Shown: positions 10,186-47,031 of the stretch, piece by piece
Position numbering within the stretch: the first letter of the stretch is position 1
Layout: each line of letters opens with the position of its first letter
From: Roseicella frigidaeris
Lineage (GTDB): Bacteria > Pseudomonadota > Alphaproteobacteria > Acetobacterales > Acetobacteraceae
Reading direction: 5' to 3'
Assembly: GCF_003258945.1 (NCBI RefSeq)
Contig: NZ_QLIX01000013.1
Coordinates: 1-64,000 of the forward strand
Length of the DNA stretch: 64,000 nucleotides
Notes under the pieces: generated by a model
Told to the model about the DNA's origin: nothing
The model's input: the letters and a program-made list of their open reading frames with translations, nothing else
Database searches by the model: none
Position numbers and translations under genes: made by a program

Positions 10186-11391
<1,206 letters not shown>

Positions 11392-17662: not shown

Positions 17663-17810
17663 CCTGGGCCACGATCCGTTCGCCCGGGTTTACGGGAAAT
17701 GCCCTAGAGCAGATCCCGATCAGGTGGACTCACCTGATCGGGTGAAGATGCTCTGAAAACAATAGCCTAGGGCACTTCCCCTGAACTGGTGTTCAGGGGA
17801 AGTGCCCTAG
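17663..17810 (-). repeat. family A structured intergenic repeat, copy 1
   Basis: A 148-bp element. On the minus strand it begins CTAGGGC with a perfect 20-bp hairpin (17767-17786 with 17791-17810, 4-nt loop), then an AT-rich GCTATTGTTTTC linker. A 12-bp hairpin follows (17715-17726 with 17731-17742, 4-nt loop) inside AGAGCA/TGCTCT, then a CCCGGG-centred third part. It aligns end to end with the 148-bp copy at 46884. The CTAG end supplies the TAG stop of the dehydrogenase gene. Confidence 0.85.
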
Positions 17811-18778
17811 CCGGCCAGTTCGGGGATGACCCAGAGCGGCCGCTCGCCGCGGGCGACGCGCTGGCAATTGTCGAAGGCGTTGCGGAAGCGGGCCTGCTGG
17901 TTGTCCCAGGTCGGGCCCGCGAAATGCGGCGTCAGCACCACGTTGTTCAGCCGGAAGAGCGGGTTGTCGGCCGGCGGCGGCTCCTGGTCGAAGACGTCGA
18001 GCCCGGCGCCGGCGATGCGGCCCTCGGCGAGCGCGGCGGCCAGCGCCGGCTCGTCCACCACCGGGCCGCGGCAGGTGTTGATGAGATAGGCGGTCGGCTT
18101 CATGCGGGCGAGCTCGGCGGCGCCGATCATGTGCCGCGTCGCCGGGGTCAGCGGCACGTGCAGGGAGACGATGTCGGCATTCGCCAGGATCTCGCCGAGC
18201 AGGCGGAAGCGGACCGCGAGCGCGTCCTCCTCGGCCTCCGAGACGCGGCGGATGTCGTAATACTGCACGTCCATGCCGAAGGCGTTGGCCAGCCGCGCCA
18301 CCTTCTTGCCGATCGCGCCCAGCCCGACGATGCCGAGCGTCTTGTCGCGCAGCTCGTAGAGCTTCGTCCCGGCCAGGTCGTTGCCGCGCCAGCGCCCGGC
18401 GGCGACGCTCTGGTGCTGCCAGACCAGGCGGCGGCAGGCGGCGAGCATGAGCAGGATCGCGTGCTCGGCCACGGCGGTGGAATTGGCGCCGCCGTTGTTG
18501 CAGACCGGGATGCCGGCCTGCCGCGCCGCCTCGATGTCGATGGTGTCGTAGCCGGCGGAGAGGAGCTGCAGCAGCTTCAGCCGCGACGCCCGGCGGTAGA
18601 GGCCGGCATCGATGGCGCGGCTGCCGAAGCCGACCAGGAAATCGGCCTCCGGCAGGGCCTTCTCGAATTCCGGGCTGCCGAGCGGCGCCACCACCATCTC
18701 CATCTCGGGCGGCGCCAGCTCGCGCGCGAGATCCATCGCGCTCAACGGGTTGTCCATCATCAGGATGCGCGGGGCCAT
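17807..18778 (-). CDS. D-2-hydroxyacid dehydrogenase (NAD-dependent)
   Basis: 323 residues. The Rossmann motif is GIVGLGAIGKKVA. The catalytic Arg lies in NTCRGPVVDE, the Glu in DVFDQEPP and the His in LTPHFAG, so the Arg-Glu-His triad is complete. It interconverts a 2-oxoacid and a D-2-hydroxyacid or acts on a phosphoglycerate-like substrate. The CGGAGG ribosome site precedes the ATG. Its stop codon TAG at 17809-17807 lies in the end of a family A repeat. The substrate is unknown. Confidence 0.92.
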   Translation of the reverse strand: MAPRILMMDNPLSAMDLARELAPPEMEMVVAPLGSPEFEKALPEADFLVGFGSRAIDAGLYRRASRLKLLQLLSAGYDTIDIEAARQAGIPVCNNGGANSTAVAEHAILLMLAACRRLVWQHQSVAAGRWRGNDLAGTKLYELRDKTLGIVGLGAIGKKVARLANAFGMDVQYYDIRRVSEAEEDALAVRFRLLGEILANADIVSLHVPLTPATRHMIGAAELARMKPTAYLINTCRGPVVDEPALAAALAEGRIAGAGLDVFDQEPPPADNPLFRLNNVVLTPHFAGPTWDNQQARFRNAFDNCQRVARGERPLWVIPELAG

Positions 18779-46883: not shown

Positions 46884-47031
46884 CTAGGGCATGCCCTGTG
46901 AACTTCCGTTCACCTGCAATGCTCTAGGTATTTGTTTTGACGAGCATCTTCACCTGTCCGGATGAGGTCATCCGGACAGGATCCGCTTCAGGCCCTGGTC
47001 CGTTCACCCGGGTTCATGGACCATGGCCTAG
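46884..47031 (+). repeat. family A structured intergenic repeat, copy 2
   Basis: A 148-bp element with CTAG at both ends. It occupies most of the 335-bp gap between the porin start and the mtnA stop. Hairpin 1 is 46884-46903 with 46908-46927. A TATTTGTTTTGA linker follows, then GAGCATCTTCAC and hairpin 2 (46953-46964 with 46969-46980, 4-nt loop). Hairpin 2 differs from copy 1 at five stem positions and every change is compensated. The rest of the gap (47032-47190) shows nothing I can name. Confidence 0.85.

Follow-up and report, generated by a model that had tools for sequence, protein, structure and literature searches.

A mobile two-hairpin repeat of Roseicella frigidaeris and other alphaproteobacteria, probably a non-autonomous IS630-type transposon

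We report that two hairpin-rich elements in a 64,000-nucleotide stretch of Roseicella frigidaeris DNA (the window, by which we mean the whole of this stretch) are copies of a mobile repeat that is present about 100 times in this genome and that occurs in many other alphaproteobacteria as well. The sequences of its ends and of sites that lack it indicate that the repeated unit is probably a non-autonomous transposon (MITE) of the IS630/Tc1-mariner type, 107/108 bp in length and without a transposase gene. The covariation of its stems is real, and is best read as subfamily history together with some constraint at the source or correction of one arm by the other; the repeat shows how genomic copies can covary clearly without RNA function at each site. 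What is new here is the proposed link to IS630, the putative CTAG target, and the CcrM-type GANTC site that the element and IS630 ends have in common.

The window copies and the repeat family

The earlier note on this DNA had described 2 blocks of 148 bp each, at 17663-17810 (+ strand) and 46884-47031 (- strand), which align over their full length in opposite orientation; our alignments bore this out, as they did the statement that the linkers are conserved between the 2 copies. The 12-bp stem, CCCGATCAGGTG/CACCTGATCGGG in the first block and CCTGTCCGGATG/CATCCGGACAGG in the second, does differ at 5 positions with 5/5 of the changes compensated, and the first hairpin pairs at 20/20 positions in one copy and at 15/20 in the other. 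Folding z-scores were -10.3 (+ strand) and -9.8 (- strand) for the 17663 copy, and -5.95 (- strand) and -5.77 (+ strand) for the 46884 copy, with 0/200 shuffles folding equally well in either case. The unit that is repeated, however, is a core of 107/108 bp (17704-17810; 46884-46991) and not the whole 148 bp. The remaining 40-41 bp of each block is a separate hairpin module in front of the core, and is absent from the large majority of own-genome places among the matches listed. The core consists of hairpin B, in which the clamp GAGCA/TGCTC encloses the 12-bp stem, followed by a 13-14-nt linker containing AAACA and by hairpin C, which has 20-bp arms with CTAG at each foot; CTAG stands at both outer ends of the core, except that CTGA replaces the first CTAG in the 46884 copy. 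The features are as follows, where R1 denotes the covariance model.

17704..17810, + strand: core element, copy 1, 107 bp, CTAG...CTAG; boundary common to most of the matches listed, and from alignments; R1 match of 121.7 bits
17704..17753, + strand: hairpin module B of copy 1, clamp GAGCA/TGCTC, 12-bp arms at 17715-17726 and 17731-17742
17704..17731, + strand: putative IS630-type end signature CTAGAGC-N15-GGACTC, the sole match to YTAGAGY-N15-KGANTC in the window
17727-17731, + strand: GANTC (GACTC), bases 21-25 after TA, inside the end signature of copy 1
17754..17766, + strand: linker TGAAAACAATAGC of copy 1, from stem tables and alignment
17767..17810, + strand: hairpin module C of copy 1, perfect 20-bp arms, CTAG at both feet
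17663..17703, + strand: additional 41-bp hairpin module, outside the core
46884..46991, - strand: core element, copy 2, 108 bp, other stem subfamily; R1 match of 88.2 bits
46942..46991, - strand: module B of copy 2, stem CCTGTCCGGATG, loop without GANTC
46884..46927, - strand: module C of copy 2, 15/20 pairs
46992..47031, - strand: additional hairpin module of copy 2
17807..18778, - strand: neighbouring gene, 323 aa, with its stop TAG within the terminal CTAG of the element

By eye, the 17663..17703 module is similar to the second hairpin of another two-hairpin repeat in a sister species. An Rfam search of the window at gathering scores returned only the tRNA at 27-100 and no RNA family at the elements.

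The own genome comprises 5.82 Mb in 87 contigs. The linker pattern has 90 exact matches in it, 46 forward and 44 reverse, and the reversed-pattern control has 0; because regular expressions for the linker pick out intact linkers, these counts are minimum values and overstate how well the linker is conserved. DNA searches with the window copies were scored for the best 40 of 194 candidates (copy 1) and the best 40 of 106 (copy 2), and 67 well-preserved full copies (66 distinct) were aligned. The stems fall into the subfamilies CCCGATCAGGTG, CCTGTCCGGATG, CCCGTTCGAGTG and CCCGCTCCGGTG, and the C modules are likewise of several types. B and C module types recombine, as is evident from module-swapped copies, and nested or tandem copies are also present.

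A search with the covariance model R1 found copies in other genomes: 40/289 genomes of the class (34/219 genera) match, own genome included, at E <= 0.001 with strict filters. Among the 30 R1 loci shown, most are ~106 bp, six are longer (137-141 bp) and two shorter; their feet are mostly CTAG or TTAG, the loop is often GGAATC, and the stems are strongly divergent. The longer form has extended arms and was seen in other alphaproteobacteria (L159, L163, L164, L165, L170 and L177). The linker pattern of the own genome occurs in 24/59 genomes (own included), in high numbers in few of them. In the phylum search, which is a weak negative control, 22/199 genomes match (own included), all of them the own genome or members of the same class. 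Judged by the neighbour gene, Roseicella sp. DB1501 is the closest relative with a name, its protein being 97% identical. An R1 search of 20 of the 80 loci around relatives of that gene (the 19 highest, and L301) gave no match, and 9 of these 20 orthologues end in CTGA. R1 also picked up 2 two-hairpin elements on pSymB of S. meliloti; the orthologous pSymB sites offered no clean empty site, but displayed altered stems and, for one hairpin, growth in tandem. On pSymB-type plasmids of Sinorhizobium (L194, L198, L199, L200) there is a hairpin module of ~54 bp whose tandem number varies by strain at one locus. A 107-bp indel between 2 Komagataeibacter plasmids near a copy was discarded as a candidate empty site, as the alignment placed it in other sequence, ~500 bp away.

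Covariation and decay of the stems

Among the 67 own-genome copies, both-sided changes occur at 22/37 pairs, covariation is 0.288 against 0.155 in shuffled alignments (0/500 shuffles as high), and 92.5% of cells are paired against 84.6% in shuffles; structures slid along the alignment gave a covariation of <=0.091. For 37 sequences from six genomes, the corresponding values are 25/37 pairs, a covariation of 0.311 vs 0.161, and 88.8% of cells paired. When all 96 B stems are taken, 146 cells are compensated, 59 are one-sided and 6 are double non-pairs.

Most, or nearly all, of the paired stem changes separate subfamilies. The B1 subfamily (57 copies) has 35 one-sided cells vs 3 compensated, and B2 (24 copies) has 5 one-sided and 0 compensated; the criterion for B1 and B2 was the opening five or six bases of one arm, and paired changes there consequently count between groups and not within these totals. 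The remaining mixed B group (15 copies) has 23 one-sided, 2 double and 13 compensated cells. C1 (42 copies) has 76 one-sided cells, 2 double non-pairs and 35 compensated cells, 25 of the 35 at two subfamily-defining positions. G-T was not significantly favoured over A-C mismatches (53 vs 37, p = 0.11). Stems and loops vary in B1 at 26/912 (2.9% per base) and 15/152 (9.9%), in B2 at 3/456 (0.7%) and 4/76 (5.3%), and in C1 at 143/1600 (8.9%) and 13/160 (8.1%), respectively. There is thus some constraint on B stems and none visible on C stems, because the former vary less than their loops and C1 stems vary equally. Some copies, for example L007 and L015, have perfect C stems with a variant unique, or nearly unique, to that copy, and at one orthologous Sinorhizobium locus two stem positions are changed in pairs.

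These observations bear on the proposal of the earlier note that structure, and not sequence, is under selection. The part that stands is that paired changes keep the stems paired. Against the remainder, the ends carry a sequence signature of IS630, described below, the paired changes mostly split subfamilies, G-T is not in excess, and copies are found in either orientation. Additional copies with stems that have lost their pairing, which the note would have counted against itself, are numerous, and well-paired copies were found in relatives too. RNA function at each locus is therefore unsupported: within subfamilies most changes are one-sided, G-T has no advantage over A-C, and neither strand is preferred.

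Ends, target sites and placement

The outer ends of the element read YTA followed by GAGC, or CTA followed by GGGC, and IS630 ends in the same and other element-bearing genomes read YTA followed by GAGC. We collected 35 IS630 loci by the PF13358 domain (5 from the own genome and 30 further), and required of their ends only TA-flanked inverted repeats, with no end sequence specified. Pairs were found for 10 copies, which represent 8 distinct elements from 7 genomes; inverted-repeat ends were not found at the other 25/35 loci. In 9/10 copies the best pair begins with GAGC/GAGT after TA on both sides; at L252 another pair was better by one match, and the GAGC pair, which is the same as in sister copies, ranked second. 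In L221, a perfect 16-bp TA-flanked inverted repeat, GAGCCTGTTTGAGAAT, lies at 87-899 with its copies 812 bp apart; these are possibly the ends of another insertion sequence.

GANTC was also found at the same offset in both kinds of end. It begins at base 21 of the element B end in 43/94 own-genome elements (next commonest offset, 3) and in 15/36 elements of other genomes (next commonest, 2). Among the 16 ends of the eight distinct IS630 elements, 6 have GANTC at bases 21-25, or 7/17 when L221, with an end picked by its GAGC start, is added, vs a rate of 0.0066 at other offsets; both L221 and one end of L224, which are own-genome IS630 copies, have the site, and 2 of the eight distinct elements (L222, L230) do not. 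The motif YTAGAGY-N15-KGANTC occurs at 13/35 IS630 loci, once each, and at 0/80 control loci (369 kb, not composition-matched); it was partly read off the same IS630 ends, 9/13 positive loci having been viewed beforehand. The other four positive loci are L229 (which matches L221), L231 (a further copy of the G080 element), L239 and L251. The right ends of the elements resemble own-genome IS630 ends in particular (2/5040 label permutations were as good), and the left ends are no closer to own-genome IS630 than to that of other genomes (668/5040 as good). IS630 domains were detected at E 1e-10 in 13/20 element-bearing genomes tested, so that a current helper is not always seen. The resident IS630 copies L222 and L224 share with the element the YTA-GAGC ends and a CTAG site, and in L224 the base-21 GANTC at one end; unlike the element, they are ~1.04 kb with a transposase domain, and L222 lacks the GANTC.

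Comparison with a sister species (G003) provided sites without the element. At L079 and L012, where CTAG borders the element on each side in the own genome, G003 has a single CTAG between flanks that are homologous on both sides. At L014 (4199-4305), where the right foot reads CCAG, G003 has the left flank and one CTAG, and only ~6 matching bases on the right before divergence. At L025, an array, the G003 site is empty without CTAG and both genes end there in TGA, which argues against a CTAG/TA target. Duplication of TA and duplication of CTAG give indistinguishable results at the empty sites. No clean alignment across the junction was obtained for L056/L122, L016/L110, L107/L126 or L039/L120. 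L007 and L125 occupy the same site with nearly the same B and a different C, and the G003 counterpart of the window at 46.9 kb has a different two-hairpin repeat at the same GCGGCAGACCTAG. We also noted a second two-hairpin family (TAGAGCGTGATCGCTTGAGGTGGACTC...), with the same end signature and sometimes fused to the present repeat, at L342 (G003, ~10300-10700), L098, L112, L122 and L124.

CTAG occurs 16 times in the window vs ~154 expected from base composition, with 13 occurrences intergenic and 3 as stop codons; other than as a stop, it was not found in any called window gene. With CTAG so strongly depleted, and within window genes present only as a stop, insertions would end up between genes or at TAG stops. 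Of 129 facing gene ends, 45 have their stop precisely at the foot of an element (41 CTAG, 3 TTAG, 1 GTAG), and CTAG stops are found in 38/361 other genes (p = 1e-7 vs element-foot ends, CTAG alone). When locus-edge elements are included, such gene ends number 46 (B foot, 29; C foot, 17). At L025 and L079, each of the two outer feet holds the end of the called gene on its side. Seven of these gene ends could be aligned with G003 (L056 was not lined up): TAG is present in 4 (both L079 genes, L012, and L023 as ATAG) and TGA in 3/7 (window 17807, L017 and L025 left). Other TAG genes kept TAG in G003 in 10/15 cases, or in 9/13 without L012 and the second view of L025. TGA is thus commoner than a strict CTAG target predicts, and an additional event, for example a switch of stop codon or a local deletion, is needed. 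The reverse case also occurs, in that the G003 copy L120 supplies the stop of a gene whose own-genome orthologue (L039) has TGA at the same codon.

As regards placement, 46 of 96 copies lie between convergent genes, 37 between tandem and 6 between divergent genes, with 6 at locus edges and 1 overlapping a gene by >30 bp. Convergent placement accounts for 46/89 copies with two called neighbours (odds ratio 6.8), where genes were called by a codon-usage script trained on 28 window ORFs, not taken from annotation, and the called neighbours include short ones, such as the right-hand gene of L025 with 47 codons. Orientation relative to the facing gene ends was 28 same/32 opposite and 37 same/32 opposite. 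Placement mostly behind genes in balanced orientation fits insertion that is tolerated there rather than a strand-specific terminator. A strand-specific terminator or small RNA was considered and rejected, as there is neither an orientation bias nor a significant G-T excess.

Origin of the repeat and comparison with known systems

In the origin that we consider probable, that of an IS630-type MITE, an IS630 transposase would act in trans to cut out the element and paste it at TA, preferably inside CTAG, with duplication of TA. Each end may have become a hairpin by gaining an inverted copy of itself, the 2 hairpins having been joined through the AAACA linker. Founder copies would be the place where new stem sequences originate, transposition and the exchange of modules would spread these, and individual copies would subsequently decay mostly neutrally. 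The end signature and the empty CTAG sites would supply a concrete enzyme and a concrete target. Points against this reading are the left ends that are no closer to own-genome IS630, the genomes in which no helper was seen, the IS630 loci without inverted-repeat ends, the TGA stops, the L025 site, and the long internal hairpins, which are unexplained by IS630 biochemistry alone.

Paired changes may also accumulate without selection, if replication switches template from one arm of a quasi-palindrome to the other. Such template switching would be compatible with a MITE origin; perfect C stems with variants confined, or nearly so, to single copies (L007, L015) and the paired changes at an orthologous locus speak for it, and the excess of one-sided over paired changes within subfamilies speaks against it, so that we regard it as quite possible without expecting it to be correct. 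An RNA or cruciform function at each locus, in 3' end formation, mRNA stability or as a small RNA, with every copy selected to fold, would account for the strong covariation (146 compensated vs 59 one-sided cells in 96 B stems), the lower variability of B stems than of their loops, the two paired changes at the orthologous Sinorhizobium locus, the position of 46/89 copies between convergent genes and the T-rich linker that follows hairpin C on one strand. Against it, the B1 subfamily, picked by the six opening bases of its 5' arm, has 35 one-sided vs 3 paired changes; C1 stems are as variable as their loop, G-T is not significantly in excess, orientation is balanced and no Rfam family matches, which together make this explanation unlikely.

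Two further explanations concern the hairpins and the GANTC sites. The hairpins with their tetranucleotide feet and the module layout recall REP-type elements, which are moved by a RAYT/IS200 Y1 transposase as single-stranded hairpins beside a tetranucleotide. The Y1_Tnp domain was not found in the own genome despite ~100 copies, it is present in 10/40 element-bearing vs 48/249 element-free genomes (p = 0.40), and the ends of the element match IS630; we consider this explanation very improbable. According to PMC2229807, Chen and Shapiro speculated that such repeats are regulatory sites. The repeat would then be a host site for the CcrM methyltransferase, with the GANTC loop as the selected feature and no transposon involved. 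In favour of this, 43/94 own and 15/36 other copies have the base-21 GANTC, which falls in the loop region of B; however, IS630 ends have GANTC at the same offset, from which it can be inherited, and the B2 subfamily, including the 46884 copy, is without it. We consider the methyltransferase-site explanation improbable.

If the MITE reading is extended, the CIR-type repeats of alphaproteobacteria, and possibly RIME and Bru-RS, might all be IS630 MITEs in which the base-21 GANTC, as in the ends of the parental IS630, serves as a methylation switch, only hemimethylated ends being active. This suggestion is tentative. That GANTC is present in IS630 ends too suggests a possible gating of transposition by a cell-cycle methylase, and such a switch, if real, would tie transposition to the CcrM-controlled cell cycle. 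Dam sites act comparably for IS10 and IS50.

Descriptions of similarly built repeats in rhizobia and Brucella date from the 1990s, and in Caulobacter such repeats have been tied to CcrM methylation sites; among the open-access papers that we covered by title and beginning of abstract, we found none that links them to IS630. In both L120 and L121 of G003, the same end of another insertion sequence follows CTAG at the hairpin C foot, near a contig end in each case. The one reading frame seen there looks IS1182-like. The arrangement may be compared with that described for IS711 in Bru-RS1. Also by published description, Bru-RS1/2 of Brucella (103-105 bp for Bru-RS) and RIME of Rhizobium are palindromic and intergenic like the present repeat. 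The GTAG and CGTC families of REPs, in the account of PMC3733652, resemble it as high-copy palindromic sequences with a conserved tetranucleotide; they differ in that they end in GTAG or CGTC, are shorter (20-40 bp) and have a link to RAYT that the present repeat does not share, and CGTC is reported missing from Acetobacteraceae.

The closest counterparts by published description are CIR and RUP. The CcrM-associated intergenic repeats (CIR) of Chen and Shapiro (2003), as reviewed in PMC2229807, occur in alphaproteobacteria, are ~110 bp long and consist of two inverted-repeat arms and a linker, with TA termini in a table of that paper and with intergenic location; in all of these respects the present repeat agrees with them, by description rather than by comparison with the CIR1-4 sequences. 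GANTC is given for the terminal loop of CIR, and in the present repeat it is found in 43/94 own and 15/36 other copies and in none of B2. The mobility of CIR is termed unresolved in that paper, and a mechanism, through IS630 ends and a CTAG target, is proposed here. RUP of Streptococcus pneumoniae is 107 bp long with IS630-like ends (PMC2229807, PMC3049150) and a TA target (PMC2229807), and by description resembles the present repeat in length, in its ~100 copies, in ends that match a resident IS630 and in target; the two ends of RUP are said to pair together, and the present repeat has two separate hairpins instead. In mode of action the present repeat would be analogous to RUP, and in layout it corresponds to CIR.
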